From: Xanthomonas hyacinthi
Lineage (GTDB): Bacteria; Pseudomonadota; Gammaproteobacteria; Xanthomonadales; Xanthomonadaceae
Reading direction: 5' to 3'
Length of the DNA: 64,000 nt
Assembly (NCBI RefSeq): GCF_009769165.1
Contig: NZ_CP043476.1
Location: forward strand, 1,364,001 to 1,428,000
Of this stretch, positions 5,414 to 29,452 are shown piece after piece; the first letter of the stretch is position 1; each line of letters begins with the position of its first letter. A model generated the notes under the pieces. It did no database searches, was not told the DNA's origin, and worked only from the letters and a program-made list of their open reading frames with translations. The translations under genes were made by a program, and so were the position numbers.

Positions 5414-6415
5414 CTAGACCAGAGTAAAGCGATGGGGACTGTTCTCGACGACGGCTTCCAGAGCATTTATCAGCCTACTATCAACAACCAACGGCTCCTG
5501 CTCCAACCAAAGACCATCTCGCACCAGATCGCGCACCAGTTTGGGCGCATCGCGCAGATCTAGCGTAGCAGACCATGGTTGTTTCACCTTCCTGGGAGCA
5601 ACGCACTCGGACCAGAACGGGGGAACGAACCAGTGCAGGTCCGACCGCCGCTCCCGCAGCTTTAGGAAAATGCGCACGCCGTTCGGGTCCAGATCACCGA
5701 AGTGAACGAGAGGAACCTCGGGTTTTACCTGGGCGAGCAAATGCACGACGGTGCTTGTATCCCAACCCGGAACATGGGCGATGAGCCATCCATCCAGTGC
5801 CGGCATATCACGCCAGGCGCCTTGGTTTTCAACCAACAATACTGCTCGCAGAGGGCCTTCCAGGGTGAGGCCATCGAGGAAGGCCCGCTCCGGAATCGGC
5901 GCTTCACCGAGCGAACTGGCAAGTGTCCATAGATCCAGGATGCCCTGCGTGGTCTGTGCCACGAGTCCACGCGGTGGTCGCAAACGCAACAGGCCGTCAT
6001 GCGTCTGTTCGGTGCTGGCCAGCGGGGCTTGCCGGCGCGGTGTCACTGCCGCTTTGGAGTGTGGTGCGGTGAGTGCGGCCGCCGTCCGGCGATTGAGGCG
6101 TTCCGGCAGCACTGGAAGTCGTCCTGCGCGGCGCGCATCTTCCAGGCGAGCCCAACCGTCGGGCGTGGGAGCAAATCCACCCGCCGTCAGTGCCGCCAGC
6201 TCGTCCTTCCAGTCCGGCCATACCCGTTCCAACAGCGCAACGAGTTCGGCGCGATAGGCCTCGACCAGAGCGATCTGGTCGCGCCGACCAGTCGCGCGGT
6301 TCCAGGAGAGCTCGGCTAGAGTGTCATATGCCTTCGCCTGTGAGGCGCGCCGCTTGAGCGTCCCCTGCATCAGCAGTTCGAGCAGAGCGATGCGCTGCTG
6401 CGGTGTCTGCCACAT
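5414..6415 (-). CDS. jetD: Wadjet nuclease subunit JetD (DUF2220/Toprim)
   Basis: 333 residues. JetD is the DNA-cleaving subunit of Wadjet/MksG-type SMC defence systems, which recognise and linearise closed circular plasmids. The C-terminal half has a Toprim-like core with LVHFGDLDPNGVRIF, where the DLD acidic pair should bind the metal; LLVENQGAWRDMPAL before it fits the conserved Glu strand of Toprim domains. The N-terminal helical part (WQTPQQRIALLELL onward) is the arm-like DUF3322-type region. The ATG at 6415 overlaps the jetC stop as TGATG, so translation is coupled. A longer open frame exists upstream but lies inside jetC. It is the last gene of the operon. Confidence 0.85.
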   Translation of the reverse strand: MWQTPQQRIALLELLMQGTLKRRASQAKAYDTLAELSWNRATGRRDQIALVEAYRAELVALLERVWPDWKDELAALTAGGFAPTPDGWARLEDARRAGRLPVLPERLNRRTAAALTAPHSKAAVTPRRQAPLASTEQTHDGLLRLRPPRGLVAQTTQGILDLWTLASSLGEAPIPERAFLDGLTLEGPLRAVLLVENQGAWRDMPALDGWLIAHVPGWDTSTVVHLLAQVKPEVPLVHFGDLDPNGVRIFLKLRERRSDLHWFVPPFWSECVAPRKVKQPWSATLDLRDAPKLVRDLVRDGLWLEQEPLVVDSRLINALEAVVENSPHRFTLV

Positions 6416-9400
6416 CAGCCTGCGCTCCGGGTACGACGGCCGAACACCTGGACTTCCTCGTGCCCTTCGGGCGTCACCTGACGCACCAGGTGATAGGTTG
6501 TATTGCCTCCGGCTCGTGCCACTTCGGGGGCCGCTATCATCAACTGCAGATCCAGTGTCTGGCACAGGTCGAACAGGACGCCGAGATTGTCCGTAGACAG
6601 GCGGTTGGCCTCGTCCAGGAACAGGAAACGCAGCGAACCATGGACTCGCTTGCCGCGCAACAAGGTCGCGTCGCGCTCCCATTCGGTGAGAATCACCATC
6701 ATCAACGCGGCGCCGACGCCGATTGCCTCACCGGTCGACAAGCGTGTTGGGTTGGCGATCTCCCAGTCGGCGCCTGACTTGCGGCGGACCTCCACTTGCA
6801 AATGCACGTATTCCCGATAGTCGAGCAGGCGTTGCCCTGCGGAGCGACCTCCGCCGTAGCGGCGAAAGATCTCGTCGAGTGCCTCCTCGATCGGCATGTC
6901 CGTTTGAAACAGCAGCTCCTGGGCCGCGCCTTCACGCAGAGCGCGCAGGATCTGCTCCATGCGTTCGACTGGCTGCAGGCGCACACGGATGTTCTTGATG
7001 TTGCCGAAGCTGACCTTCTCCAAGTTGTTGGTCAAGCGGGTGACCTGACCACGCGCCTTGCGGATCTGCACATCGATGCCGCGCGCCACATCTTCGCTGG
7101 TTCCGCGCAGGTCGCTTTCCTGACGGGTGAGACGCTCTTCGAGGTCGGATAACTGGTCGCGCAGCCGGACAAGCGCTTCGCGCGGGTCATCGACCTCGGC
7201 CACTTGGGCCGGCAGGCGACGGCGCAGCCAGTCGCGCACGGCCAACCAGAGTTCCAAGATGGCATCAGCGAAGGCGGCATCGGACGTATCGCGCAGCAAC
7301 TGCAATTCGGCGAGCAAGGTCTCCCCGCCGCGCGCACTGCCCAAGCGCTCCAGCAGGACGACTCGGCGTATCTTGGCCTCCTGGACAAAATTGATGTGGC
7401 CGCGGATGTCGGCAAATCCTTCAGGGGTTTTGGTCAGCAACTCGCCTACCAGGCCATCGCGCATCGCCCAGCCGAGCAGGTCGTCCCAGCGCTTACGTGC
7501 CGGCTCCGCCTCGCGGCGTTCGGCGGCAAGTTTGTCGTCAGCCAATTGCAGATCCTGCTGGGCGCTCTGCAAGCCATGTTCCTGGTTGCCTTTAGCAGTC
7601 AACAATTCATCGCGTCGTGCCCAATGGGTATGCAGTTCCTGTTCCAGCCGCTCGACCTCGGCAATAGCTGACGAAAGGGCCTCCTCGGTAGGAGCGGGTA
7701 TTCCTAGGGCATTGAAATATTCAGCAGCGGATTCATGTCCATGTTTTGCGTTGGCGTACTGGCTCTGTATAGCAAGAAAGCGCGTGTGCGCTCGGTCATA
7801 CTGGGCTTCCGCCTGGGCGACCTTGTTCTCGATATCTTGCTGTAACGTTTCGGCCTCGCTCAGTTGCGCTTGCAGCGCCGGAACCAGTTCCTGCGAGTCT
7901 TCGAGCCGGCGTGGCGCTTCCTCCCAAGCCAGCGCTTCAGCGTTGTCGCACAGGTATTCGAGTGCTTCGACTCCAGCATCAAGCTGCTGACGTTGTTTCT
8001 CCAGGGCATCCGTGTGGCGCTTCAGGTCTTCCATGTCCATGTCCGACAGCGGAAGCTGGCGCAAGTCGCCAAGCCCACGCTCCACACGAAGGGCACGCTC
8101 CTGGTTGGCGGCGATCCAGTTCCTGGCCTCGCCTGCCTGCGACGCTCTTTCGCTAAGTGTCTGCACCCGCTCGGCATGGTCAGGCGGATCGAGCAGCATC
8201 GCCTCGCCCAGCAACGAACGCAGCCTGCCAATACGTGGCTGCAGCGCCTGTGCCTCTGCAGCATGGCGATCTGCCGTTTCGCGCTGCTGTTCGATCTGTT
8301 CGTCGGTCAAGGCGATCGCCTGCTGCGCCTCGATGATGGCGTCCGCAGGATCGCCTGCCAGCCACACCTCCAGTCCGGCAAGCAGCGCATCGCCATCCGC
8401 CAGCAGCCGTTCCAGCGTGCGGCGCACATTCCTCGCCGCGTTCAGTTCAAGGGTTCTCTCCTCGGCCTGCGCCTGCAGGTCAGCCGCGCGCTTCTCCCGC
8501 GCACGCCGCCCTAGGCGCGGCTTGGCGGGGATACGGGACACGCGCAGGGCGATACCTTCCTGGACGACGAGATCACCTTCGCCTGCCATCGTACTGCCGG
8601 AGGCTTCTGCCAGACGATAGAGGTCGGCATCACGAGACACCAGTAGCACGTCAGTCAATTCCTCTGGCCGGTCAATAGCGATGCGGGTTGCCACAGTGGG
8701 ATCGTCGACGACCAGCGCCTGCGCCAGGGCGCCAAGTCGGGCTTCCAGCACCGCCGCCTCCTCGATCGCCACTTCTTCGTAACTGCCGGCCAGCAATTCG
8801 GCACCGAGCCGATCCTTGAGCTGCAACAACGCGGGCGAAAATGGACCACCAGCCGCCAGCAGCTCGCGCGCCTCCTGGATCAGCCGCTCCTGTGCTTGCC
8901 GTGCCTGCTGTTCGGCCCGGCCCGTCTCGGCGTGCTGTTCGCTCAAGAGGGGCCGGGCTGCATCTAGGCTGTTCCGATCCTTCACCCGGGTACCGAGGTG
9001 CTCGGACAGGCGGATGGCGCATTGTGCTAGCGTGCACCATTGCGGCTCCCGTGCCAGTAAGTGCCGAAGCTGTTTCTGGAGGTCTTCGCGCCGGCGCCGT
9101 AGCTCGGCCACTTCGTGATTGGCCGTGCGTTGCGCCTGCTCGTGTGCTGACCGTTCGGCTTCAGTGCCGATCAGCAAAGCATCGACGACCTGCGTAGCAG
9201 GAGCCTGGTTCAGAACCACACCCACCTCGCTTGCCTGTGCGCGCACCCGGGCCTGCCGGACCTGCAGCTGCTGCGCTTCGGCCAGTTCGCGCTCAATACC
9301 AGGAAGCTGCTCGGCCAATACGCTCAGTTGCCGATGATGATTCAATGCTTCAGTGGCCACATCGTGCGCAGCGATGACCTCGACATCCCGTCCCACGAGC

Positions 9401-10836
9401 CGTCGCAAAGCCGCCAGGAGCTGCTCATGGCGCGCACGGTGCTCCAGCGCGTCGGACAGGCGTGTCCTGGCCTCCCGACGCTCCCGATCAATGCGCTCGA
9501 GTGTGTCACGTGCCGAAGCAAGATGGTCGGCGAACTGCGCGGGTAGCAAGGGTGCAGCCTGTACATTCGCCTCGGCTTGCCGCAGCCGTCGGGTGGCCTG
9601 GCGATAGGCAGCGGCGCGGCGATGCAGCTCCTCGATGCCCTGCTGCAGATCGGCGAGTCCCTTGGCGGCACGCATGTAGTCCTCCCGGGCACGCTTGAGT
9701 TCCTCGCGATTACGCGTGCGCAGTGTCTCAGCCTCGCTTTGCAGCCTACCCGCTTCCTGCGCTTCGCTCTCGGTCTCCGCGAGCCGGGTGACACACTGTT
9801 GCAGGGTACTCAACGCCGCCAAAGCATCTTTCATTTTGGCGCACCAAATGCGCGCGGATTCGAGCACACGGTCGAGTTCGCCCTTGCGAGTATCGAGCGC
9901 ATTCAGCTCGGCCAGGATCTCGCCGAGCACTTCGCGCGCAGCCTCTTGTGCCTGGAAGGCATGATCACGTGCGCTTTGCGCCTCGACCATCCGGCGCGCC
10001 AACTCGTCGGCGCGTTCGCGCGTCGCGAGGAAGGCCGCGGCGAACATAGCCTGGCCCGCTTCGAAGACACTGCCGATCTCCTGCTCCAGACGGCGCGACT
10101 CCTGCACTTCCACCCGCGTGCGCCGGCAGGCGTCCAGATTCGTCCGCATTCTCTGCAAGGTGTCGGCGAGACCGCTTTGCTCCCTGAGCAGAAACGAGCG
10201 CAACTCCGAAGTGAGTACCCGCGAGATACCGCCGGTCATGCTGGTTCGCAGCATTTCGTTGAACTTATTGCGCTCCTCGTCTGTACCGAGGCGCAGGGGC
10301 ATCACGCCCTGGTCGAACAGCGCGGCGAAGTACTCCCGCGCCGACGGGAACGACTGTAGTCGTCCGCCAAGCCGCGCTGCGTTGTCGCGCAGTTCCTGCA
10401 ACTCCGGTACAGACTCGACACCGCCCTGCGCGACCAGCAACAGATCCTGCAGACGAACCGCAGGGTCGAGATTCCAGACGATGAACGAGATTGGCTCCAC
10501 GGAAGGCTCGCCCTTGCGCTCCAGGTGCACCCCCGCAACCAATCGTTGTGCGCCGGCAAGGACAAAGTCGATCACTGCATAGGAGGGGCGTCCAGGATCA
10601 CCGAGACGGCCCCAAATGCCCTTGTCGCCGCCGGTCGCCCCGGTCTCGCCGAGATTGGTGAAGCGCAGGCGAGACATGTCGGGAAGCAGGGCAACGTAGG
10701 CGGCAATCATCACCGTGGTCTTGCCGGCACCGTTGCTACCCTCCAGCGCAGTGACGTGCCGGTCGAGCAGGTAGCGTTCGTAGAAGACGCCTTTCCAGTT
10801 GACCAGGACCAGTGCCTCGGCAAGCGTTCGGCTCAT
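6415..10836 (-). CDS. jetC: Wadjet SMC ATPase JetC, MukB/MksB-like
   Basis: 1473 residues, an SMC-type ATPase that would form the DNA-extruding motor with JetA and JetB. Walker A GSNGAGKTT lies at residues 33-41 within LVNWKGVFYERYLLDRHVTALEG, a layout like the MukB head. The ABC signature LSTGEAIGVG is near residue 1366 and Walker B FLFLDEAN near 1404-1410. Between the heads lie two long coiled-coil blocks, rich in Glu, Arg, Ala and Gln, around a central hinge-like part (roughly 640-770). End motifs such as VSFGNIKNIRV, LLDYREYV and LMIAAPE match the MukB C-terminal head in order. Length is close to MukB (about 1480) rather than short JetC proteins. The start forms an ATGA overlap with jetB. 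Confidence 0.88.
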   Translation of the reverse strand: MSRTLAEALVLVNWKGVFYERYLLDRHVTALEGSNGAGKTTVMIAAYVALLPDMSRLRFTNLGETGATGGDKGIWGRLGDPGRPSYAVIDFVLAGAQRLVAGVHLERKGEPSVEPISFIVWNLDPAVRLQDLLLVAQGGVESVPELQELRDNAARLGGRLQSFPSAREYFAALFDQGVMPLRLGTDEERNKFNEMLRTSMTGGISRVLTSELRSFLLREQSGLADTLQRMRTNLDACRRTRVEVQESRRLEQEIGSVFEAGQAMFAAAFLATRERADELARRMVEAQSARDHAFQAQEAAREVLGEILAELNALDTRKGELDRVLESARIWCAKMKDALAALSTLQQCVTRLAETESEAQEAGRLQSEAETLRTRNREELKRAREDYMRAAKGLADLQQGIEELHRRAAAYRQATRRLRQAEANVQAAPLLPAQFADHLASARDTLERIDRERREARTRLSDALEHRARHEQLLAALRRLVGRDVEVIAAHDVATEALNHHRQLSVLAEQLPGIERELAEAQQLQVRQARVRAQASEVGVVLNQAPATQVVDALLIGTEAERSAHEQAQRTANHEVAELRRRREDLQKQLRHLLAREPQWCTLAQCAIRLSEHLGTRVKDRNSLDAARPLLSEQHAETGRAEQQARQAQERLIQEARELLAAGGPFSPALLQLKDRLGAELLAGSYEEVAIEEAAVLEARLGALAQALVVDDPTVATRIAIDRPEELTDVLLVSRDADLYRLAEASGSTMAGEGDLVVQEGIALRVSRIPAKPRLGRRAREKRAADLQAQAEERTLELNAARNVRRTLERLLADGDALLAGLEVWLAGDPADAIIEAQQAIALTDEQIEQQRETADRHAAEAQALQPRIGRLRSLLGEAMLLDPPDHAERVQTLSERASQAGEARNWIAANQERALRVERGLGDLRQLPLSDMDMEDLKRHTDALEKQRQQLDAGVEALEYLCDNAEALAWEEAPRRLEDSQELVPALQAQLSEAETLQQDIENKVAQAEAQYDRAHTRFLAIQSQYANAKHGHESAAEYFNALGIPAPTEEALSSAIAEVERLEQELHTHWARRDELLTAKGNQEHGLQSAQQDLQLADDKLAAERREAEPARKRWDDLLGWAMRDGLVGELLTKTPEGFADIRGHINFVQEAKIRRVVLLERLGSARGGETLLAELQLLRDTSDAAFADAILELWLAVRDWLRRRLPAQVAEVDDPREALVRLRDQLSDLEERLTRQESDLRGTSEDVARGIDVQIRKARGQVTRLTNNLEKVSFGNIKNIRVRLQPVERMEQILRALREGAAQELLFQTDMPIEEALDEIFRRYGGGRSAGQRLLDYREYVHLQVEVRRKSGADWEIANPTRLSTGEAIGVGAALMMVILTEWERDATLLRGKRVHGSLRFLFLDEANRLSTDNLGVLFDLCQTLDLQLMIAAPEVARAGGNTTYHLVRQVTPEGHEEVQVFGRRTRSAG

Positions 10837-11513
10837 GACGACATCTCCTCCCCTTCCGCGTCACCGCCATCATCATCCACGTCTGGAGCATCGCCCAGCA
10901 ACACCTCGCCGTGCGCAACCAGCCGCTCCAGTGCGTCGCCAGGATCGGTGAGTCCGCGAACCGGCTCAGCAAAGCGCATCAATGCTGGCCGTAGACGCAG
11001 CCGGGAAACATCCACGACATCGACGAAGCCTAGATCGGCCAGTTTGCGCAGAGCCTCGTCCACCTTGCCACGCACGGTCTCCGCGGCGATGCGTTCGTCA
11101 TACTTCCGCCTACGCGGAGTCAACGTGCGTACCAGCGCATCGGTGCCCAGCAAGCCGGACAGTCGCTGCAACAACGCTTCCCGCGTTGTCATGCCGCCGT
11201 GCTGCAAGGATGCGGGATCGAGATACAACAGCGCCAGCACCTGCCCAACGAGCATTTCGCCGACGGACAACTGGCGACGCCCTAGTCGATCGCCGTTGGG
11301 CAGCAAATAGAAATAGCCATCACTGCGCTGGATCAGTTCGCCGCCGAATCGCCGGTAGAAAGTCTCGAGCAACGCCTGCGCGTCGACTAGATAATCATAG
11401 AGACTGCCGTCATCACGACCGATATGGCGTCCGTGGCGCAGCATAAGATCCACCTCAGGAAAGCGTTCGTCGGCAATCACCAAATCCAGGGAAGCGAATC
11501 CGGCATCACTCAT
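10833..11513 (-). CDS. jetB: Wadjet kite subunit JetB, MukE/MksE-like
   Basis: 226 residues. JetB is the KITE (tandem winged-helix) subunit that binds the kleisin and DNA. The stretch FPEVDLMLRHGRHIGRDD followed by FYRRFGGELIQRSDGYFYLLP and MLVGQVLALLYLDP closely follows E. coli MukE (LRSGRHIG, FYARYNVELI, GFFYLRP, CYLYLSPE). The acidic tail (DVDDDGGDAEGEE) also parallels MukE. The ATG at 11513 overlaps the jetA stop as ATGA and was preferred over a start ten codons upstream. It overlaps jetC by the same ATGA pattern, so the three condensin subunits are translationally coupled. Confidence 0.85.
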   Translation of the reverse strand: MSDAGFASLDLVIADERFPEVDLMLRHGRHIGRDDGSLYDYLVDAQALLETFYRRFGGELIQRSDGYFYLLPNGDRLGRRQLSVGEMLVGQVLALLYLDPASLQHGGMTTREALLQRLSGLLGTDALVRTLTPRRRKYDERIAAETVRGKVDEALRKLADLGFVDVVDVSRLRLRPALMRFAEPVRGLTDPGDALERLVAHGEVLLGDAPDVDDDGGDAEGEEMSS

Positions 11514-12817
11514 TGCGCTTTCCTCTGGCCCTGAACGTTCCAATCCTCGATCTCAAGCCGTTCGTCTACCGCGCGCCATGGCCGTTCGCGGCTCGAACGC
11601 AGGCGGGCGAACCGCGCTACCGCGTCGGCGACCCGCCCCACAGTCACGTAATGGCTGTCTTCGGTCAACGTGGCGATTACTCGCAAAGTCACCCCCGCCA
11701 GGGAATCGATGCCCTCCTCGAGTGCAAGGTTCACCAGCACCTCGATATCCGCCAGCGCATTCTCGGCCTCCACCCAGGCCGGCTCGGCCTCGCGATCCGT
11801 CCTTGGCCTGGCCACCGCTGGACGCTCGACGCGTGCTTCGAGCGGGCGCAGCAGGCAGATGGACCCCGCATGCGCAACCACCAGATGGAAAGGCTTGTTC
11901 TGCCAGCCCACTATCTGGTCGCGCAAGCGTTGGCTCAGCGCCCGATCAGGATCCAGCCTGACCACGTCGCGTAGGTAACGATGCACGTATTGGTAGTACT
12001 CGGACCATGCCTTCTGGCGCGCGCTGCCCCAGGCTGCGATCCGGTCGACATGTTCGATGACCCGCTGTGCTGCCTCCTCGGGCTCGGCACGTTGCGCCGA
12101 CATGGCCAGTGCCTGGATGTCCTGTAGCAATGCGACGAAATGGTGCGCATCGCGCAGCAGGATCTCATTGAGTTCGCGCAATGTGCGGGTCGTTGCGTCA
12201 AGCAAGGCCTGGCATCGATCGACTGCACTGAACCAGTCGGTGGATAACAGGCTGGCGATCTCCGCCTGGACTTCTTCTTGCTGAGCATCGAGCCCGCGCT
12301 GCCGGCGTTCGATGCCTGCCACCAGATCGCCCACCGTGATCCTCAAGGGCGCAACCACGTGCCGGTGCCAATCCTCGTCATCCTGGGCCTTCCTGGCTGT
12401 CGCCAGCACGTCGGCGAGTTGCGCACGCAAGATACCTGTCAACAAGCTGAGGCTCTCCCTCGTCAGCGCCTCGTCTGTCAGAAAATACTCGATCACCGCA
12501 GCGGCAAGTCGCGTCAGCGCGTACTCGCCCGCCCTCACGATACCGGCGCCATCGACCCGGGCCAGCATGCGCTGCTCACGCAGGCGCTGGATGGCATGGG
12601 TCGCGCGCTTGCGCGGGTTCTCGGCAGCGGGTTCGACGACATCGCAGACTTGCTCGAACAGGTCGACCAGCAAATCCTCCTCGAATGACGCCAGCCCAGC
12701 CTTGTCCGCCCTCAGGTAGAGGCCCGCGAGAAAGCAAATGTCTGCCGTCTTCAGGTCTAGATTGACCTGGTCCCGCACCAGCGAGGCAATAAGGCGATTG
12801 GGGTCGGCTACTGTCAT
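11510..12817 (-). CDS. jetA: Wadjet kleisin JetA, MukF/MksF-like
   Basis: 435 residues. JetA is the kleisin that closes the SMC ring. The middle reads WHRHVVAPLRITVGDL, then AEIASLLSTDWFSAVDRCQALLDATTRTLRELNE (given in pieces: STDWFSAVDRC, TTRTLRELNE), which aligns position by position with MukF (WHRNVYAPLKYSVAEI, NKDWRAAISSCELLL, GTLRELQD). The N-terminal winged-helix part and the C-terminal one that should contact JetC are present. The ATG at 12817 has an AAGGGG site about 12 bases upstream; a TTG 11 codons earlier is less likely. It begins 66 bases after the rloC-like stop, first gene of jetABCD. Confidence 0.85.
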   Translation of the reverse strand: MTVADPNRLIASLVRDQVNLDLKTADICFLAGLYLRADKAGLASFEEDLLVDLFEQVCDVVEPAAENPRKRATHAIQRLREQRMLARVDGAGIVRAGEYALTRLAAAVIEYFLTDEALTRESLSLLTGILRAQLADVLATARKAQDDEDWHRHVVAPLRITVGDLVAGIERRQRGLDAQQEEVQAEIASLLSTDWFSAVDRCQALLDATTRTLRELNEILLRDAHHFVALLQDIQALAMSAQRAEPEEAAQRVIEHVDRIAAWGSARQKAWSEYYQYVHRYLRDVVRLDPDRALSQRLRDQIVGWQNKPFHLVVAHAGSICLLRPLEARVERPAVARPRTDREAEPAWVEAENALADIEVLVNLALEEGIDSLAGVTLRVIATLTEDSHYVTVGRVADAVARFARLRSSRERPWRAVDERLEIEDWNVQGQRKAQ

Positions 12818-12883
12818 GCGCGCTGAATCAAACCCCTTGTCACACCGCAATCCTGCAGCGGCTTCATTCCGGATGCATAACCT

Positions 12884-15169
12884 TCAAGCATGGATAACCG
12901 CAGCGGCATTAGCCTGCTCCAATCGCTCCATGGCATTCGGTGCGATCTCAGGTTCATCCGAGTATGCTTCGCGCATCATCATTTTGTAGTGTGCCAGATG
13001 CCTGGACTTGACGAAGATCGCCTTGAAGATCCGCAAGTAGCTCTCCACCATGGCATCGTCGACCGCGACATACAGGTCGTCGTGCGAAAAATGGGAGCCA
13101 TCATTGACCCATGAAAAAAGCGATCGGCAGATGACCTTTTCGCTTCCCTCGAACAGGTTGCAGATGTCGTCGGTATCGGTTCCGCCGAGGATCTTGAAGT
13201 AGTTCTCGAGAATACGCCGGAGGGTGTTCTGGATCGAAAGATTAGATCGGTCGCCCCGCCGCACCTCCGCCCACAGCAACTCATATGAGGTGACGATCGG
13301 GTTGTTCGTATGGGCTTCTATTCTGGAAGCGTGGTGGGATTTGCGGACAACCCAGAAGGTTTCCTCGCTACGCATGGCGGTTCTGTCGGTGCGCCGAGGG
13401 TTGAAGGTCACTTCCTTGTGGAAGTAGACGTTGTGGGTCAGCACGAAGACCTGTTTGATGTGACCGATCCCTTGGCGCACCTCATCAAATAGCGCCTTGA
13501 TCAGGCTACTGACGATGAATAGGATGTCGCTGTCCAGGCTCGAAACCGGATCGTCGAAGACCACAACCCGGTCGGTCGTCACGCCGCTTTCCGAATCGCT
13601 GCCTTTGAGCAGATGATAGAAGTAGAGGAAGGTGACGAAGGTGCGTTCTCCTTCGCTCAAGGTTTCCTTCGCGTCCACGCCATCGGGCCGCCGCAGCACA
13701 TAGGCGGTGCCGCTGTCTGCCTTGCCCAGGGAGAAGCCATGGAAGCCGAACGAGGCCAGCAATGCGTTAATCGCATCGATGGTCGGTTGGACGCTGGTGG
13801 TCGCGCGCTCCAACTCGGCAATCTCCTTCTGCTTCTGCCGCCGGTCTATCTCCGCCACCTCGATCTTGCCGGTCAAGGCCATGATCGCGCCTGTCAACCC
13901 CTGCTTCCTCGTCGAATAGTCTTGCAAGGCGGTAGCCAACTCGACAGCGATGATGTGTTTCCATACCTGGTTTGCCAACTGCCGCTTCTCCTTGCCCAGA
14001 TTGGCCACCGTAGCGTTGTGTGCCTCGATCTGCTCGTTGGCCGCCACAAGCGCCTGGGAGATTCTCTCCAGCGTGTCGGCCAAGGGCTCCAGTGCAACGA
14101 GTTGACTTGGCTCGCGTTGCTTGTCGGCCAGATGCTGGCGATTGAGGGCGATCCGGGAAGCCAGCAGGGCCACTTCTGTCCTCAGTAGTTCTGCATCGAG
14201 GAATCGGCAAGGCGCATCGAGGGTTGCGGACAATTGCGCCAGGAGGTAGTCGGCCGAGGCGGCATAGGCCTTGGCCAGATCGTCGATGGCATGGCTAGCG
14301 GCCAGGAACGTGCCATCAAAATAGGCCTCCAGGCTGGCCGCAAAGGAGGCTTCAGTGGTCTGCTGGCAGAAGGGGCAGATGCTCGCTGCTTCATCGAAGT
14401 AGGCGCGCCCCTGTCGCACCCAGTCGCTATTGCCCAACGCCTTGATCATTGCCGCGATATCGACATCTTCCCGACCAAGAACGCGCTTGCTCAGGATTGG
14501 ATTCGATTCGTGGAACAAAAGGGCATCGAACGACGGGGATACGACGAGGGACTCCGGTGCAGGTGAAGGGCCAAAAATAGTCTTGGCCTTCTCATGGAGA
14601 TCGGCCAATGGAACCAATGCCGCTGAATTTCCGGCATGCTCTAGCAGCACACGGGCTTTGAAGTTCTCGGCATTGTTGCGCACGCCCTGGAATGCCAGGG
14701 CGAATTCACTGTCGTACTTTCTTTTCTGGGCCCAGCAAGCCTCCTGAAATTGGGTCTCGAGATCGGCAAGTTCTTTACGCTTACCTCCCTGGCCATCCAG
14801 CCCCTCCAAAGTCTCCTTCAGATTGGCGATGCGTCCACTGTAACTATCGGATTCCTGCTTAAGTGCCACGATCTTGGCAATATTGTCGACGTTCTTTGCA
14901 CCAAGGGTGAAGATGCCCTTGAGTTCTACGGAAGGGCCGAAATTACGTGCAACGAAGTCACGGTTGTAGACCATGACCTGCAGGGGAGTACCGTTCTTCC
15001 AGCCGATGTGGCAGCCGGGATAGCCGGCGGGGTCTGCAATCACCCGGGAGATCGTGGTTTTGCCACAGCCGTTGGCGCCGTAGAGGAAATTGAACTTCGT
15101 CAGCCCATCGAGCGCTTGGGCCTCCTGTCCATACGAGGCTACCCCCGCTATCTGCATCGATTCGATCAT
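12884..15169 (-). CDS. RloC-like ATPase with zinc hook and candidate anticodon nuclease
   Basis: 761 residues of the AAA_13/PrrC-RloC group. RloC proteins couple an ABC/Rad50-type ATPase, which senses DNA damage, to a C-terminal nuclease that cuts tRNA at the anticodon and stops phage growth. Walker A GANGCGKTT is at 31-39, a zinc-hook CPFC at 265-268 lies between helical coiled-coil parts, the signature LSEGERTF and Walker B VVVFDDPVSSLD follow near 530-565. The C-terminal part has RRILE (R-x3-E) and, 38 residues later, NDGSH, a spacing similar to the Arg-Glu-His triad of PrrC. The ATG at 15169 follows a strong GGAGGA site. It starts 47 bases after the helicase stop. A different AAA_13 effector is the main alternative. 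Confidence 0.72.
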   Translation of the reverse strand: MIESMQIAGVASYGQEAQALDGLTKFNFLYGANGCGKTTISRVIADPAGYPGCHIGWKNGTPLQVMVYNRDFVARNFGPSVELKGIFTLGAKNVDNIAKIVALKQESDSYSGRIANLKETLEGLDGQGGKRKELADLETQFQEACWAQKRKYDSEFALAFQGVRNNAENFKARVLLEHAGNSAALVPLADLHEKAKTIFGPSPAPESLVVSPSFDALLFHESNPILSKRVLGREDVDIAAMIKALGNSDWVRQGRAYFDEAASICPFCQQTTEASFAASLEAYFDGTFLAASHAIDDLAKAYAASADYLLAQLSATLDAPCRFLDAELLRTEVALLASRIALNRQHLADKQREPSQLVALEPLADTLERISQALVAANEQIEAHNATVANLGKEKRQLANQVWKHIIAVELATALQDYSTRKQGLTGAIMALTGKIEVAEIDRRQKQKEIAELERATTSVQPTIDAINALLASFGFHGFSLGKADSGTAYVLRRPDGVDAKETLSEGERTFVTFLYFYHLLKGSDSESGVTTDRVVVFDDPVSSLDSDILFIVSSLIKALFDEVRQGIGHIKQVFVLTHNVYFHKEVTFNPRRTDRTAMRSEETFWVVRKSHHASRIEAHTNNPIVTSYELLWAEVRRGDRSNLSIQNTLRRILENYFKILGGTDTDDICNLFEGSEKVICRSLFSWVNDGSHFSHDDLYVAVDDAMVESYLRIFKAIFVKSRHLAHYKMMMREAYSDEPEIAPNAMERLEQANAAAVIHA

Positions 15170-15216
15170 TCGCCTCTCTCCTCCGAGGATCGCTGCCGAT
15201 CTCTGATCGGCCCGCA

Positions 15217-18200
15217 CTACAGGAATTGCAACGCCTTCTCCAGACGCGCCCGGCTGGCCGCGCGCAACTGCTGCAGCCCCAGTTCGCGGGCCATGGCGTA
15301 GAACGCTCCCTCCCCCTGCTCGCCACGGTCCGTCACCTCGCGGGCCAAGGCCGACAGTTCAGGCAGGCTGATCTCGTCCGCCGGTCGCACGCTGTTTTCG
15401 TCGCCAGGCCGCCGAAAGGCGGGCGGTATGGCTGGATCGAGGTGAGCTGGCCAATAGAACACGCCCACGTCCTCTTGCGTGGTGCTGTAGTTGGCCTGCG
15501 CCAGTTGCAGCACGCGGTCGCGAATACGCGAACCGGTGCGCAGCCAGCCGTGCGCGCGGGCTATGCGCCGCGTCAGTACGCCATCGAGTACCGGGCCTTC
15601 GCGTTCGACCACGTGGGCAATCACGGCCGATAGGGTAGGCACATAGTCGTCGTCAAAAAACGCGTCCGCATCGATACCCGCTACCGTCGCGGCCGGATCG
15701 GTGATCAGGAAAGATGCCGCCAACGATGCCGGCAGCGGTTGCGTCTGAGGATGAGGGGCAGCCGGCGCCTGGCGGGTGTAGATATCTTCTGCGGCTACCG
15801 GAGGTGGGGCGGCAATCGCGATTTGCGTATCGGGCTGGGCAACAATGGGCGTTGCTGTACCGGCACCGTCTGCCGCAATAGCCATCGCCCGGGCGATCGC
15901 CGCCTCTGCGATCTGACGAGCTTGCGCTTCGCGCTGGGCCTGTGCCTCGCGCTGGCCGCGTGTCTCGACTAGCAGGGTCTGCAGGCGAGCATCGAGTTTG
16001 TCCAGCGTGCTGGCTGGGTCGATCCACCAGTCGGTAGACCAAACGCGTACCACCTTCCAGCCCAATCCACGCAGCACCTGCTCGCGCAACTTGTCGCGGT
16101 CGCGGGCGGTCGCACTGCGGTGATAGGTGGCGCCATCGCACTCGACACCGGCCAGGTAGCGGCCGGGCGCATCGGGATCGATCACGCCAAGGTCGATGCG
16201 GAACGACGAGGCACCAACCTGGGTCTGCACCCGCCAGCCGCGCTGGACCAGGGCAGCGGCCACGGCCTGCTCGAAGGGACTGTCGAAACCACCCAGGCTG
16301 CCGGGACTAGCCTCGACCAAGGCGCGCGCGCCACGCTCGGCGAATTCGAGGAAGTGCTTGAGGTCGCGCACGCCTATAGCCTGGGTGCGGGCCATATCCA
16401 TCTGCTCAGTCCTGAGGCTGGCGAACACGCGCAGTTCGTGGCGCGCCCGGGTGATGGCGACATTGAGCCGGCGCTCGCCGCCCTGGCGGTTGAGCGGCCC
16501 GAAGTTCATCGCCAGTTGGCCAGACGCATCCGCTCCATAGGTGATGGAGAAATAGATGATGTCGCGTTCGTCGCCCTGGACGCTTTCCAGGTTCTTGACG
16601 AACACCGGCTCCAGCTCGCTCTCGGCGAACCAAGGTTCCAATCGCGGATCCTTGCGCCGTGCGTCATCGAGCAGATCCTCGATCAGTTTCTGCTGCTCGG
16701 CATTGAAGGTGACCACGCCGATGGTCAGACCGCTTTCGCGGAAGCCCGGTGACGTCAGGCGCGCCACCACGTCGGCCACCAGCGCTTTCGCTTCTGCAGG
16801 ATTGGTACGCGAGCCGCCTTTCTCGTAAGTTCCGGCGATCTGCTGCAGGCTGACCGCATGATCGTCGGTGACCGGCGAAGGGAAAGTAACCAGCTTGCCG
16901 TCGTAGTAGTTGTGGTTGGAAAAGGCGATCAGGCTTTCGTGGCGGCTGCGGTAATGCCAATTGAGATGGCGGACCGGCAGGTTGGCGCCGATGCATTCAT
17001 CGAGGATGCTTTCCAGGTCGGCCTCGACATCCTCGTCGTCCAGATCCGATTCGGCACGGTCGAAGAAGGCAGTCGGCGGCAATTGCTTGGGATCGCCAAC
17101 CATCACCACCTGGCGACCACGGGCAATGGCACCGATCGCGTCCCACACCGGAATCTGCGAGGCTTCGTCGAAGATCACCAGATCGAAGGCGTTGGCGCCG
17201 GCATCCAGGTATTGGGCGATCGATAGCGGGCTCATCAAAAGACAGGGGGTGAGCTTGGTCAGCGCCTGGGGGATGCGCAGCATTAACTCGCGCAGTGGCA
17301 GGTGTGCGCGCTTCTTGCTCATCTCGTGGCGCAACACGCCCCATTCGGAGTTGCGGCTGACGTTCTCCTGGGCCGGCATGTCAGCGCACAGCCGGGCGCG
17401 CAGCCAGTCGCGGGTCAGGCCGGTGAAGCGTTCGTCCAACTCGCGGAAGTCGCGGATGCGCTGCTCGTGCTCGGCGCTGACGAAGCCGCGGATCACGGGC
17501 TCTTCGTCTACCGCGGCATTGAGCCACCAGCGCGCGTAGTTGGCCTCCAAGGCGCGTCGCGCCTGGCCGGGCGCCACATGCCCCTGTTCCATGCCGAGCA
17601 CCAGGGGGCCTAGACCCAGTGCGAATGCTTGTTCGCGCACCTGGCGCCAGGCGCACCAGTTGCGCAAGCCATGCTCGGCGCGGACGATGGCTTCGCAGCG
17701 CTCGATCAACTGCGGCAGCGGCGAGGCATGCAATTCGGCCTGCGCCGTTTCGGCGAACTGCCCGACAGTCGCCAACGCCCGCCGCCGTGGTTGCAGTTGC
17801 TGCCAGGCCTCGATATAGCGCGAACCGGCGCCGACGATCTGGCCGCCCGGCTCCAGCAACGCATTGGCATCGCCCAGCAGGGTATGCAGCGTCGCCTTGT
17901 ATGCGCCGATCTGCTCGGGCGTGGCGGCCAGGCGGGCGACGGCGGCAGCGACGGCGGCGTGCAATTGGCAGGCTTGCGCTGCGTCGTCCAGCCGCGTGCC
18001 CAGCCCCTGCCACAGCCCGGCGCTGGCTTCCCTCAAGTCGTCCAGCGCGTCCAGTGCCTCCTCGACCTCGGCACGTTGCTGCAGAAAATGCCAGTCGTTG
18101 GCCAACGTGGCGCCGCAGGCGTTTTCCGCCACCTGCACGTGCTCGGCCTGCAATGCGCCCTGCTGCAGATGGGCGCGCCGATCCGCCAGGAACTCCAAGG

Positions 18201-21200
18201 CGGCGCGCAGCCCATCGATGCGGGTGGCCTGTCCCGTCCACAGCCGCTCGGTGGGCTGCTCCAGCGACGCCAGGGCGGCGATCTCCTGATCCAACTGACG
18301 CAGGCGCCGCGCATTTTGCAAATCTGCCCGCAAGGCATTGCCGCAATGACCCTCTTCGATCAGGTCAAAACCCGCATCCTCCCAGGGCTGGTCGTCGCGC
18401 AGGGCGGTCAGTGCCGTTTGCCAGCGCAAGGCAGTGCGGACAGCCTCCGTTTGTGTCTGCAACCCTTTCCAGACGTCTGCAGTTTCCTTGCCAAAGCTAA
18501 GCGCTTGTACTTGACGGCGAAGCGCTCGAATAGCGTTCCATTGCTGCAAGTCGTTGCCGACGTTGGGCGCTATGACGCCGCTGACGGCGCTGACCAGTTG
18601 CGCCTTGACCTTGCGCTTGCCCAGCCAGGATCTGGGCCAGAACGTTTGTTCGGCCAGTTCCCAATCCACTTGCAGTTGCGCCACGTCCAGGCGCTCGATG
18701 GCCTCGTCATAAGGCACCGACAAGCTGGCCTGACGTTGTACGAGTTGAGCCAGTAGCTCCAGGCCCTGGTTGAGCAGCAAAATGGTGCGCACCGGCCAAG
18801 GCTCGCCCAGCCGTGCGTACGTCGCTTGGCGCTCGGCCAGCGCGGTCAGGCCCCGCTCGCAGGCGCTGACGATCGACGTCGGCCAAGGCGGGGATAACTG
18901 TGCATTCAACTCGGCGTGCCGGCGCACCAAGGTAGCGCCTTCCTGCACACGCTGAACCAGGCGCCTGGCATCGGGGCGCAGAATGAAACGCCAATCGTGC
19001 CCGGCCGCGCGGGGCAGACACTCAGCAAGCAACGCCAGGGCCTGGCAGGCCTCCTGGGTCGAGGGGGTGGCAGGCAATCCACTCGCTTGGACGAAGGCCT
19101 GTGCTGTGTCGATCGCTATCTGTGCGGCGGGCAACACTTCGCGCGCGGCCGCGACCAGTTGCTGCTGCCAGGACGGCGACCAGCCGCCTTGACCCACCAT
19201 GACCAGCGGATGGCTGACCAAGGCGGCATGACCAATGACCTGGGCATTGACCTCCAGCCGGTCGGCAAGGCTGCGCAGTCGATCCATGGCGACCCGATCA
19301 TGCTGGCTGGGCGAAGGCCAGGCCAGCCGCAGCGCGGTCACCTCCTGGCCGGCACTGACCTGGCCGATAGCGGCGAACAGGCTCAACCCGTTGCCGTGGA
19401 GCTGGTGCAGGCGCTCGACGTAGATATTGAGTTCATCGCGCAGGCGCTGGAGCTTTTCCGCTTCGGCATGCCACTGCTGCGCATCCGCCAGGCCGCTGCT
19501 TTCCCAGGCTGACTGCAATTGCGCCAGCACATCGAGCTTGCGTGCCTTGCTCGAGTGCAGTTCCAGGCAGAACTCGCCCAGGCCGATCTCGCGTAGGCGC
19601 CGGTAGACTACGTCCAGCGCCGCGATTTTCTCGGAGACGAACAGCACCCGGCGCCCTTCAGCCAACGACTGGGCGATCAGGTTGGCGATGGTCTGGCTCT
19701 TGCCGGTGCCTGGGGGCCCGATCAGCACGAAGTCCTTGCCCTGCGAAGCGGCGAGCACCGCCGAAAGTTGCGAAGAGTCCGCCGGCAGCGGGCAGAACAC
19801 CTGACGCGGGTCGAAACGTTGGTCGAGCTGGCGCACGTCGGGAAACGGCGTGCCCGAGGGATAGGCCTCGCGTGGGGTATCGAGCAAATGCCGCACCACT
19901 GGGTTCTGTCGCAATTGCTCGCTACGCTCCGCCAGATCCTTCCACATCAGGTACTTGGCGAAGGAGAACATGGACAACACCACGTCCTCGTTGACCTCCC
20001 AGCCCTTGATGTCCTTAATGGCGTAACCGACCGCTTTCCAGACCGCCCCGATATCCAGGCCTGCCTCATCGCGCGGCAGTTCGCCTTCAGCCACACCCAG
20101 GCCGAGTTGGAAATCCTGGCGCAGCATCTCAATCAGAGTCGGATTGAAGCGCGGCTCGTCATCGTGCAGGGTCAGCATAAAGCCGGAACGTGCGCTCTTG
20201 CGCTGCAGGCTGACCGGCACCAGAATCAGCGGCGCCCGGTAACGTTGCTCGGCGCGATCGTCACGCGTCCAGGACAGAAAGCCCAAGGCAAGGTACAACG
20301 TATTGGCACCGCCTTCCTGCAGCGTATTGCGCGCGCCGCGGAACAGCTCCACGAGACGGGACTCCAGTTCCGCCTCTGGCACGCTGACGAATACTTCGCG
20401 GCGTCTGAGCGCATCCAGCGCATGGGACCGCCGCACGTCTTCGCGCTCACGAGCCTCATAGATCGCTTGGTTGCGTGGATCGGCGCCGTCCATCAGGTCG
20501 GGCCGCGGCGACAGCTTCAGCGGCTGCCCGCTGGACAACAAGTCCTCCAGCGCTCCCGGATCCGGGGCATCCAGCTTCAGTGACTTCTTGCCGCCCTTGA
20601 AGTTGAGCAAGTTGTTGCGCAACGAGAGATCGAGCAGTTTGCGCTGCCAGCGCGCCAGCCGATCTATAGGATCCAGCAGAGGAGCTTCCAGGTCGCCATC
20701 TCGCTCATCATCCGACAATGCCGGGGCTTCCTCGAAGACCGGCAAGGTTGGCTTGGCAGGTGAGATCTGCTCCTCAGCAGGGGCGCGTGCGACAGCATCC
20801 GCACTGGCCAGTGGCTTGATCCGTTGCAGGCGGGCGCGGCGGATGTCCACCGCCAGGCGGAATACGGCGTCCTCAGTCTCGCTCACCTGGTGCGCGCCGC
20901 GTTCAGCGGCATAGCTGAAGGGCACAGCTGGGCGCTGGGTGATCAAGGTGGTCTCGAACAACACCAGCTCCCTGAGCTTGAGCCGCTTGCGCAATGCTGT
21001 GATGTCGTCGACCACGGTGGTCGAGAACTCCTCCGGCTTAAGCCAGAACCCAGCGAAGGCGTGGCCCTCGGTGAAGATCAGCAAAGGGTTCAGCCCAGCC
21101 TGCTCCAGCGCAGCACAGAACAGCAAGGCCAGGTCGAAGCAGGTTGCCAGTCCCGATTCGGCGATCTGGCTCGGACCACGCACCTTCTGCCCGGACTGCT

Positions 21201-21837
21201 CGAAGCTGGCGGGCGGCAGCGCATAGTCCAGACCCATACCAGCCACCGCACCCCAGATAGCCGAAGCCAGCTCCCAAGCGCGCTTGACGCCTCCGGAGTA
21301 ACCATCGAGCGCCGAGTTCCTGCCGTTCTGGCGCAGAATCTCTGCCGCCTGCTTGAGCAAACGTTCCACGGCTGGTTCGTTGGGCTGAACGAAAGCGGCC
21401 ACCAGATCCGGGAGATGGGAAAGCCCACCCCATTGGTTACGTGGCAAGAGTTCCAGGCGGAACTCGCGTCGGGCCAGTTCCTGGGAGGAATCCTCCCTTG
21501 CCGTGCAGTGAATCGCCAGCGAGACCGTGGCCAACTCCGATTCGGTCAGCCGCGCCAACATGCCACCGTCCAGCGCCAGGTCCAGATCGCGGATCGGATA
21601 GCGGGAACCGGCTGCAAGCGCATCAATGCGCCAGCGCTTTGGCTTGAGAAAAGCCGGGTCCGAGGTAAGGACCAGTTCCACGTTATCGAATGTCTGATCG
21701 GTGTCGTTAACGAGACACAGCTCCCGAACCACGGGGACCGCGTTCTGGAAGTCGGCCAGATTCAGCTTGGCGACTAAGGTCGCATCGATTCGCGGCTCGG
21801 CCAGAGCGCTCTGCCCGTCCGGTTGCATTTCATCCAT
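15217..21837 (-). CDS. Giant DUF4011 / superfamily-1 helicase / nuclease defence protein (Hhe-like)
   Basis: 2206 residues. In order: an N-terminal beta-rich part; a transglutaminase-like segment near 215-270 (GLATCFDLALLFCAAL then EGHAFAGFW); DUF4011 from about 395 (WQRKLLDLSLRNNLLNF); SF1 helicase motifs, GPPGTGKSQT and VIFDEASQIP then GDPKQLPPTAFF and RRLNVAITRARHEL; an MTES_1575/Vsr-like nuclease near 1850-1960 (FEQAVAAALVQRGWRV, RIDLGVID, GVECDGATYH, VVRVWSTDWW); and a DUF3320-like C-terminus. This architecture matches the single-gene Hhe antiphage system (helicase, DUF4011, Vsr) as I recall it. The ATG at 21837 sits just after a run of eight G; a second ATG three codons on is possible. 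First gene of the defence block. Confidence 0.85.
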   Translation of the reverse strand: MDEMQPDGQSALAEPRIDATLVAKLNLADFQNAVPVVRELCLVNDTDQTFDNVELVLTSDPAFLKPKRWRIDALAAGSRYPIRDLDLALDGGMLARLTESELATVSLAIHCTAREDSSQELARREFRLELLPRNQWGGLSHLPDLVAAFVQPNEPAVERLLKQAAEILRQNGRNSALDGYSGGVKRAWELASAIWGAVAGMGLDYALPPASFEQSGQKVRGPSQIAESGLATCFDLALLFCAALEQAGLNPLLIFTEGHAFAGFWLKPEEFSTTVVDDITALRKRLKLRELVLFETTLITQRPAVPFSYAAERGAHQVSETEDAVFRLAVDIRRARLQRIKPLASADAVARAPAEEQISPAKPTLPVFEEAPALSDDERDGDLEAPLLDPIDRLARWQRKLLDLSLRNNLLNFKGGKKSLKLDAPDPGALEDLLSSGQPLKLSPRPDLMDGADPRNQAIYEAREREDVRRSHALDALRRREVFVSVPEAELESRLVELFRGARNTLQEGGANTLYLALGFLSWTRDDRAEQRYRAPLILVPVSLQRKSARSGFMLTLHDDEPRFNPTLIEMLRQDFQLGLGVAEGELPRDEAGLDIGAVWKAVGYAIKDIKGWEVNEDVVLSMFSFAKYLMWKDLAERSEQLRQNPVVRHLLDTPREAYPSGTPFPDVRQLDQRFDPRQVFCPLPADSSQLSAVLAASQGKDFVLIGPPGTGKSQTIANLIAQSLAEGRRVLFVSEKIAALDVVYRRLREIGLGEFCLELHSSKARKLDVLAQLQSAWESSGLADAQQWHAEAEKLQRLRDELNIYVERLHQLHGNGLSLFAAIGQVSAGQEVTALRLAWPSPSQHDRVAMDRLRSLADRLEVNAQVIGHAALVSHPLVMVGQGGWSPSWQQQLVAAAREVLPAAQIAIDTAQAFVQASGLPATPSTQEACQALALLAECLPRAAGHDWRFILRPDARRLVQRVQEGATLVRRHAELNAQLSPPWPTSIVSACERGLTALAERQATYARLGEPWPVRTILLLNQGLELLAQLVQRQASLSVPYDEAIERLDVAQLQVDWELAEQTFWPRSWLGKRKVKAQLVSAVSGVIAPNVGNDLQQWNAIRALRRQVQALSFGKETADVWKGLQTQTEAVRTALRWQTALTALRDDQPWEDAGFDLIEEGHCGNALRADLQNARRLRQLDQEIAALASLEQPTERLWTGQATRIDGLRAALEFLADRRAHLQQGALQAEHVQVAENACGATLANDWHFLQQRAEVEEALDALDDLREASAGLWQGLGTRLDDAAQACQLHAAVAAAVARLAATPEQIGAYKATLHTLLGDANALLEPGGQIVGAGSRYIEAWQQLQPRRRALATVGQFAETAQAELHASPLPQLIERCEAIVRAEHGLRNWCAWRQVREQAFALGLGPLVLGMEQGHVAPGQARRALEANYARWWLNAAVDEEPVIRGFVSAEHEQRIRDFRELDERFTGLTRDWLRARLCADMPAQENVSRNSEWGVLRHEMSKKRAHLPLRELMLRIPQALTKLTPCLLMSPLSIAQYLDAGANAFDLVIFDEASQIPVWDAIGAIARGRQVVMVGDPKQLPPTAFFDRAESDLDDEDVEADLESILDECIGANLPVRHLNWHYRSRHESLIAFSNHNYYDGKLVTFPSPVTDDHAVSLQQIAGTYEKGGSRTNPAEAKALVADVVARLTSPGFRESGLTIGVVTFNAEQQKLIEDLLDDARRKDPRLEPWFAESELEPVFVKNLESVQGDERDIIYFSITYGADASGQLAMNFGPLNRQGGERRLNVAITRARHELRVFASLRTEQMDMARTQAIGVRDLKHFLEFAERGARALVEASPGSLGGFDSPFEQAVAAALVQRGWRVQTQVGASSFRIDLGVIDPDAPGRYLAGVECDGATYHRSATARDRDKLREQVLRGLGWKVVRVWSTDWWIDPASTLDKLDARLQTLLVETRGQREAQAQREAQARQIAEAAIARAMAIAADGAGTATPIVAQPDTQIAIAAPPPVAAEDIYTRQAPAAPHPQTQPLPASLAASFLITDPAATVAGIDADAFFDDDYVPTLSAVIAHVVEREGPVLDGVLTRRIARAHGWLRTGSRIRDRVLQLAQANYSTTQEDVGVFYWPAHLDPAIPPAFRRPGDENSVRPADEISLPELSALAREVTDRGEQGEGAFYAMARELGLQQLRAASRARLEKALQFL

Positions 21838-24756: not shown

Positions 24757-24832
24757 TGGTGGGCCCACCAGGATTCGAACCTGGAACCAAAGGATTATGA
24801 GTCCTCTGCTCTAACCGTTGAGCTATAGGCCC
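24757..24832 (-). tRNA. tRNA-Ile (CAT anticodon, ileX type), copy 1
   Basis: A 76-base cloverleaf can be folded by hand: acceptor GGGCCTA pairing TGGGCCC, D-stem GCTC/GAGC, anticodon stem GAGGA/TCCTT with loop CTCATAA, T-arm CCAGG-TTCGAAT-CCTGG, and encoded CCA. The CAT anticodon with GACTCATAATC context is that of tRNA-Ile2, whose C34 is normally changed to lysidine by TilS so that it reads AUA; elongator Met is the alternative. It is identical to the second copy at 28961. Confidence 0.92.
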
Positions 24833-25131
24833 GGAAGCGTCCGGAACGGGCGGCGATGCGCCGGCCGCCGGCTTGGCGCCTCTAGCGTGCATGCAGAGGA
24901 GGCGCCGAGGCGGGCGTGAGTTTAACGTCCGCGGCGGCGCCGTGTCTTCCCGGGGGTGTCGATGCACACCGACTGATCGGCCGCAGCGGCGCGTTCCTGA
25001 CCGGTGCCGCGCCTGATGCTCGCCCGTGTCAGGGCTCGTTGGCGTGGTGGCAACGACCGCATCGACAGCCGATGCGGTCATTGGGGATCCGCCAGCGGGG
25101 CAAGCGCAAGCGCCCTCCCCTCAATCCTCCA
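24757..25131. repeat. Left copy of duplicated tRNA-Ile / glgB-spacer block
   Basis: This block corresponds to 28961-29463. The tRNA is identical, the first 130 bases upstream of it (including a GGCGCCTCT...AGAGGxGGCGCC hairpin at 24875-24906) differ by scattered substitutions and small gaps, the middle is shorter and diverged, and the last 28 bases (25104-25131) are again identical. Those last bases include 11 bases of the glgB 3' end (stop codon and final codons) although no glgB follows here. Homology stops exactly at the tRNA CCA on one side and at 25131 on the other. Confidence 0.8.
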
Positions 25132-28960: not shown

Positions 28961-29036
28961 TGGTGGGCCCACCAGGATTCGAACCTGGAACCAAAGGATT
29001 ATGAGTCCTCTGCTCTAACCGTTGAGCTATAGGCCC
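28961..29036 (-). tRNA. tRNA-Ile (CAT anticodon, ileX type), copy 2
   Basis: Identical over all 76 bases to the copy at 24757, with encoded CCA. Its upstream neighbour is the intact glgB, so this is probably the ancestral locus. Confidence 0.92.
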
Positions 29037-29253
29037 GGAAGCGTCCGGAGCGGGCGGGCGATGCGTCGGCCGCCGGCTTGGCGCCTCTGGCGTGCATGCA
29101 GAGGAAGGCGCCGAGGCGGGCGTGAGTTTAGCGTCCGCGGTGGGTTGTGTCTTCTTGGGGCTGTCGATGCGCGCACTGCTGGCTCGCATGCGCCGTGGCT
29201 AAGGAGGTAGCGAATCGCCCGATTGCTATTGCTATGATCCCTGGTCTCCCGTG

Positions 29254-29318
29254 TGTGGGCGGGCTTCAGCCCGGGCAATGGGCCGGGACCGCGCGTCGGG
29301 GCTGAAGCCCCTCCCACA
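29254..29318. repeat. REP-like inverted repeat (TGTGGGxGGGGCTTCAGCCC type)
   Basis: Left arm TGTGGGCGGGCTTCAGCCC and a right arm that is the reverse complement of TGTGGGAGGGGCTTCAGCCC surround a short GC-rich centre. Such elements are scattered between genes in Xanthomonas and relatives. It is found in the right spacer copy only, so it was inserted or lost after the two copies separated. Confidence 0.65.
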
Positions 29319-29452
29319 ACGGCCGAAGTCGGCTATTTCCCCTATCGCCCGACGGCAGAACGTCGGCGCGCATCGGCAACCGTGTCGACGGCCGATACGG
29401 CGGCGCCGCTGGCCGCGCACGCGACGTCGCTAAGCGCGCAAGCGCCCTCCCC

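Follow-up and report, generated by a model that had tools for sequence, protein, structure and literature searches.

Wadjet systems and the MukBEF complexes are the closest described relatives of the operon that we report here. In type I Wadjet, JetB touches JetD via an N-terminal IFDR motif, according to a 2023 review (PMC10586767), which leaves the relation of Wadjet to other structural maintenance of chromosomes (SMC) complexes unresolved and calls an origin of MukBEF from Wadjet tempting. MukBEF is described as being without JetD in another paper (PMC7617805), and the authors of PADLOC (PMC9252829) name MukFEB as a Wadjet look-alike. We analysed a 64,000-nucleotide (nt) stretch of the Xanthomonas hyacinthi genome (contig NZ_CP043476.1, positions 1,364,001 to 1,428,000; hereafter the window) and found an operon that departs from this description of MukBEF, in that its jetD overlaps mukB. 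This mukF-mukE-mukB-jetD operon is preceded by an RloC-like gene and by proA. We read the whole unit, with a probability of about 70%, as a defence stack with nested modularity, made of a JetD-armed MukBEF core, a co-travelling RloC-like partner and a separate ProA gene abutting this cassette.

The original prediction, made from the sequence alone, described six minus-strand genes that overlap at three joints and stand 47 and 66 nt apart at the other two, which the coordinates confirmed, and three defence-related modules packed colinearly, which was also borne out. The features, in window coordinates, are:

15217..21837, minus strand: proA, a separate module encoding a DUF4011-helicase-MTES_1575 nuclease-DUF3320 protein of 2206 aa (NCBIfam NF058533; PADLOC PDC-S37)
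15170..15216, minus strand: ProA/RloC-like gap of 47 nt; all but 5 nt belong to the block shared with Stutzerimonas stutzeri TS44
12884..15169, minus strand: gene for an RloC-like AAA_13 ATPase of 761 aa, family PDC-S06, with CPFC, RRxxE and H as candidate anticodon-nuclease residues
12818..12883, minus strand: RloC-like/mukF gap of 66 nt; similarity to armed loci that have no RloC-like gene starts just inside mukF
11510..12817, minus strand: mukF, kleisin (Pfam MukF_M and KicB over cut-off; NF003615 383.5 bits, cut-off 407)
10833..11513, minus strand: mukE, KITE subunit with an N-terminal FASLD peptide as candidate JetD-docking motif (Pfam MukE 120 bits; NF003602 117.9 bits, cut-off 250)
6415..10836, minus strand: mukB, SMC of 1473 aa with a MukB hinge (NF003422 1129 bits, cut-off 699; PF16330; MukB-only PDB sequence matches)
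5414..6415, minus strand: jetD, predicted Toprim nuclease subunit of 333 aa (PF09983; E196, D241, D243, E305, E307)

The overlaps measure 4 nt between mukF and mukE, 4 nt between mukE and mukB and 1 nt between mukB and jetD. A jetD start at 6682 was rejected as an over-extended open reading frame (ORF), because alignment with the listed homologues starts at the ATG at 6415.

The SMC of the window is a MukB. It passes the MukB equivalog model as well as the hinge model (138 bits, cut-off 27), and by sequence it matches only MukB chains in the PDB. MukF and MukE stay below their equivalog cut-offs and pass the Pfam models MukF_M, KicB and MukE. PADLOC, run on the window, found neither JetA nor JetB, and its matches to JetC (at most 35.6 bits) and JetD (at most 27.5 bits) were weak; the label of Wadjet type I, II or III was rejected, because four Jet proteins of one PADLOC type were not recognised. 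The operon nevertheless holds a Wadjet-like gene set, namely a kleisin, a KITE protein, an SMC and a JetD-family nuclease whose catalytic residues are kept: the five acidic residues of JetD are invariant in 33 aligned homologues, taken from 120 listed proteins. The earlier label, Wadjet, was reasonable as to what sort of function the genes have but not as to type; the unit combines a MukB-type SMC with JetD and has no PADLOC JetA or JetB. The structure model of JetD matched solved MksG, JetD and TopoVI-A in Foldseek; on a second look these matches cover mainly residues 136-328 and barely touch the N-terminal part.

Trees of SMC head domains place the MukB-type proteins apart from JetC, with support of 99/97 when type I-like and type II sequences served as outgroups (43 of 45 rows, two without a Walker motif in the first 200 residues being left out), and of 100/100 with the type I-like outgroup only (36 rows, after 13 near-duplicate, unmatched or long-branch rows had been dropped). 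JetC3 (type III) is not among the sequences in these trees. The window MukB is sister to the MukB of S. stutzeri TS44. The operon shares with Wadjet I-III the four colinear genes and a JetD model that fits solved JetD and MksG, but differs from them in its MukB-type SMC and hinge. The same genome also carries two classic type I operons (C1:4497968-4504716 and about C1:1584095-1591328), each encoding DUF3375, DUF4194, SMC-type ATPase and DUF3322+JetD_C proteins (L136:5968-12716; L137:6095-13328); DUF3375 and DUF4194 are presumably JetA and JetB. The type I JetDs have an N-terminal DUF3322 match, whereas the window JetD shows none. The genome of the window has, in all, three JetD-bearing SMC systems.

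With the MukBEF of E. coli and its relatives, the operon shares the identity and order of MukF, MukE and MukB, but it is sporadic and mobile, carries jetD, and its MukE has an aromatic N-terminal peptide. By blastn the window unit gave no match to two canonical mukFEB loci (L193 and L185), indicating large DNA divergence. The peptide, of the form aromatic-x-x-L, is present in 32/32 JetD-associated MukE proteins and 0/7 canonical ones, with the pattern having been defined after the sequences were viewed. By analogy with the IFDR motif of JetB, it may dock JetD.

A scan of a species-genome collection found 45 loci with this JetD. A MukB-type ORF lies directly upstream of JetD in 36 of them, and all four core genes are present in 29, with mukB in pieces in L016 and jetD in pieces in L043. 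Among the host phyla are Pseudomonadota, Myxococcota, Planctomycetota, Acidobacteriota, Binatota, Gemmatimonadota and UBP9; close relatives are found in hosts far apart. The order mukF-mukE-mukB-jetD is widely conserved, and the distribution of the core is patchy and mobile: among 248 genomes of the TS44 family JetD had one strong and two weak matches, and JetD was absent from 59 other relatives that were searched, including 19 congeners. On an 880-kb plasmid of Burkholderia pyrrocinia the core stands behind SMODS, ThiF/E2, Mov34, WYL and SAVED genes, a CBASS-like set. A plasmid search with the JetD protein returned two records, this megaplasmid and a chromosome of Aeromonas that is recorded as a plasmid; no plasmid gave a near DNA match to window positions 5414-15220, and none of 18 pattern matches in viral contigs was a relative of JetD. 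In three loci (L024, L025 and L049) pieces of mukF are joined to a partial jetD, with mukE and mukB gone, and these look like collapsed operons.

The RloC-like protein matches PF13166 over nearly its full length and PADLOC family PDC-S06. Its CPFC (residues 265-268), R651, R652, E655 and H693 are invariant in all 31 homologues aligned (31 of 120 listed proteins). The AAA_13 ATPase, the CXXC motif and the downstream RxxxE plus H resemble those of RloC and PrrC and make it a candidate member of that group. It differs in that PDC-S06 is only a candidate family, the best PADLOC match to PrrC reaches 42 bits, and the nuclease role is predicted. The structure model (predicted local distance difference test 74.6, predicted template modelling score 0.46) resembles Rad50, SMC, PtuA and Lamassu-type ATPases in Foldseek with low TM-scores, a result that concerns the ATPase and is silent on the nuclease part. 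Among the matches listed, its closest kin are 85% and 82% identical, the latter from Azotobacter chroococcum, and the others at most 63%.

How the six genes partition follows from the borders of the blocks they share with other genomes. Window 5457-15211 aligns with S. stutzeri TS44 as one block, 83.0% identical over 9758 columns (9.8 kb), which spans jetD, mukB, mukE, mukF, the RloC-like gene and the 47-nt gap, and stops 5 nt short of proA. In four armed loci without an RloC-like gene (L058, L026, L011 and L010), DNA similarity starts at window 12796-12808, just inside mukF. Together these ends mark two nested borders, that of a four-gene core and that of a five-gene cassette, and ProA lies outside both. 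In TS44 a RES/Xre toxin-antitoxin pair stands ahead of the RloC-like gene, with a phage-type integrase beyond it, and the genome has no ProA match. The packing of all six genes in one direction, with a gap of 47 nt and no terminator-like site inside the gaps, would suit a single integrated system, as the original prediction had proposed. We consider this very improbable and rejected it, given the TS44 border and the lack of any RloC-like, Muk or JetD match in seven further regions with a ProA-family gene, of which four pass the family cut-off and three do not (some are cut by contig ends, in at least one case at ProA). Nor is the six-gene order conserved across genomes, as only one of 27 readable JetD loci besides the window, that of TS44, has the RloC-like gene. 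The first gene itself had been called Hhe-like. It shares with both ProA and Hhe the DUF4011, helicase, MTES_1575 nuclease and DUF3320 parts, but it exceeds the ProA cut-off (NF058533, 2441 bits against 1500) and falls below that of Hhe (NF042953, 855 against 2000), so the Hhe label was dropped. We found nothing on ProA in the open-access literature.

A tighter alternative is a five-gene system, in which the RloC-like ATPase is functionally tied to MukFEB-JetD and might, for instance, act as an abortive back-up once the SMC-nuclease is inhibited, in the way that PrrC stands guard over a restriction enzyme. The movement of the five genes as a single block between two distant genomes speaks for it, as does the spacing of 57-66 nt between the RloC-like gene and mukF in both the window and TS44. 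The pairing, however, is confined to these two loci, and relatives of the RloC-like protein are common where JetD is rare (E <= 1e-50 in 21 of 368 TS44-family genomes, with only that of TS44 above 49% identity). We regard functional coupling as possible but doubtful, and prefer the nested stack, in which the RloC-like gene is a travelling partner of the core.

Other defence genes take the same place. The 27 loci are those JetD loci in which mukF is present and preceded by no fewer than 850 bases. Seven of them have, ahead of mukF, a co-directional gene of a PADLOC family in operon-like spacing (overlapping by 4 nt at the closest, 57 nt away at the widest): RloC-like in L005 (TS44), AbiEii in L010 with a fragment in L012, TmtA in L011, LmuB in L013 and L036, and YhcG-type PDC-S02 in L021. 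Once the window is counted, the figures are 8 of 28 loci and five families, and so about five independent arrangements; stacking ahead of mukF recurs while the partners change. In L036 three colinear ABC-3C/Lamassu-type genes, CTD6, MC2 and LmuB, precede mukF. Lamassu/ABC-3C genes ending in LmuB about 46 nt before mukF (L036:3-10966; L013:1124-10915) put two SMC-type systems in one direction.

We also weighed a non-defensive role, with MukFEB-JetD serving as an accessory complex for chromosome organisation or repair. Chromosomal MukB is closer to the window SMC than JetC is, and in Aeromonas a related JetD lies near canonical mukFEB. The patchy distribution with its 59 empty relatives, the plasmid carriage beside CBASS-like genes, the defence neighbours and the collapsed remnants make this role unlikely, though less so than a six-gene system. 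Further observations tell against the defence stack. In E. coli, MukB is the SMC of a complex that organises the chromosome. Nine of the 45 JetD loci have no upstream MukB ORF; L007, L018 and L019 among them start at contig ends, L042, L044 and L048 match in part or weakly, and the rest are the collapsed L024, L025 and L049. Defence genes also occur downstream of jetD (GajA in L010 and QatA in L023; none in L011), so the clustering may be island-wide rather than a special slot, in which case it may say nothing on joint action. Ten PADLOC-scanned ORFs near the upstream slot had no match (two each in L020 and L026, one each in L006, L008, L029, L035, L037 and L040), nor did ORFs further off in L033 and L043. 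The R-x3-E and H of the RloC-like protein were, moreover, compared with a presumed PrrC/RloC nuclease triad, and the MukE peptide pattern was, as said, chosen with the sequences in view.

If the core behaves like the Wadjet systems that have been studied, MukFEB would load on DNA and extrude loops, and extrusion that stalls on a small circle, such as a plasmid, would trigger the Toprim nuclease JetD to cut, perhaps held in place by the MukE peptide. The RloC-like protein, a Rad50/SMC-like ATPase with anticodon-nuclease residues, would probably serve as a back-up that stops translation by cleaving tRNA. ProA would add a separate helicase-nuclease defence next to the cassette. What the sequences show are the identities and order of the genes, the conserved four-gene core and catalytic residues, and the cassette borders; this division of labour is inferred. 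Co-transcription of the six genes is plausible only. A consensus scan found no promoter- or terminator-like site within the 47- and 66-nt gaps, and its totals did not exceed those of shuffled sequence (promoters: 1 found, 3.1 expected; terminators: 14 found, 12.4 expected).

JetD also occurs near canonical mukFEB. On an Aeromonas caviae chromosome (the record filed as a plasmid), the canonical genes are followed, 7.2 kb downstream, by a JetD that belongs to the window's branch. A protein search (140 proteins, 120 listed) found the family in many Aeromonas species, and an order-wide search of 345 genomes gave 24 matches: 19 in genus g338, taken as Aeromonas from sequence identity, four in g316 (family f202) and one in g325 (f211). 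Ten g338 genomes have a first copy, 54-74% identical; in eight of the ten regions mukB lies 2.4-9.8 kb upstream of it in the same orientation. All 19 have a second, weaker match (30-39%); three of these group on a single branch, and in the two inspected the VEN, GDLD and EQE motifs are gone. In one f202 genome (G748, L193:5695-11091) a JetD-like gene begins 3 nt after canonical mukB, but its VEN glutamate and GDLD aspartates are gone. Two of the three f202 copies distant from mukB were inspected, and they keep the motifs. A JetD tree built from a hand-picked subset of 35 rows unites these copies from Aeromonas and f202 in a single clade (100/99). In the MukB tree of 36 rows, the proteins from G748 and from four Aeromonas loci belong to the canonical clade (100/100). 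In Aeromonas, then, motif-intact MukB-type JetD genes lie 2-10 kb past canonical mukFEB on the same strand (L155:11915-18425 and 25597-26622; L181-L189), and the G748 gene looks as if its nuclease had decayed in place.

These data support, without proving, a descent of MukBEF from a nuclease-armed complex. Co-descent, followed by displacement, decay and loss of JetD, is the simplest reading of the sequences. We would give an even chance to the fuller proposal, that chromosomal MukBEF, the condensin of E. coli, descends from a JetD-armed MukB-type complex of whose radiation the window operon is a living member, that Aeromonas and a related family have kept JetD near or beside their canonical mukFEB, either intact and displaced (the first copy) or without its motifs (the second copy and, in one relative, the copy directly after mukB), and that E. 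coli lost it. The intact, displaced JetD of Aeromonas may still act with chromosomal MukBEF. Several results pull the other way. Two of the ten first-copy regions have no mukB, only one being cut by a contig end; no mukB was found within about 9-10 kb of the other three of the four f202 copies; and the single f211 copy (L194), whose neighbour is an incomplete mukB, is not part of the Enterobacterales JetD clade. JetD-associated MukBs split into two tree lineages, and a single armed clade was not rejected (approximately unbiased test, p-AU 0.268), so canonical MukB may be nested within the armed proteins or be their sister. Both MukB trees and the JetD tree gave long-branch warnings. With deep branches this poorly resolved, later capture of JetD stands as the alternative to co-descent.

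Operons of MukB proper with JetD, and JetD near or beside canonical mukFEB, are natural intermediates for testing the descent of MukBEF. We found no description of either, the latter in Aeromonas, in the open-access literature, although Data S1 of PMC7617805, which lists Wadjet-group operons, may already hold some. They fall in a blind spot of PADLOC, whose JetA and JetB models miss this MukB-JetD type, while the changing partners in front of mukF illustrate how defence stacks come together. The lasting point is the nuclease-armed MukBEF and the origin of MukBEF, rather than the six-gene stack.

The region around the stack looks acquired, as its GC content across about 4-30 kb of the window is below that of most flanking stretches and JetD is absent from the 59 relatives. 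A tRNA-Met gene with its downstream sequence is duplicated in direct orientation at window 24757-25131 and 28961-29463, about 4.2 kb apart. The search for an island edge gave no third match elsewhere in the window and no integrase among ten flanking ORFs scanned. A Fic-domain gene lies between the two tRNA-Met copies.

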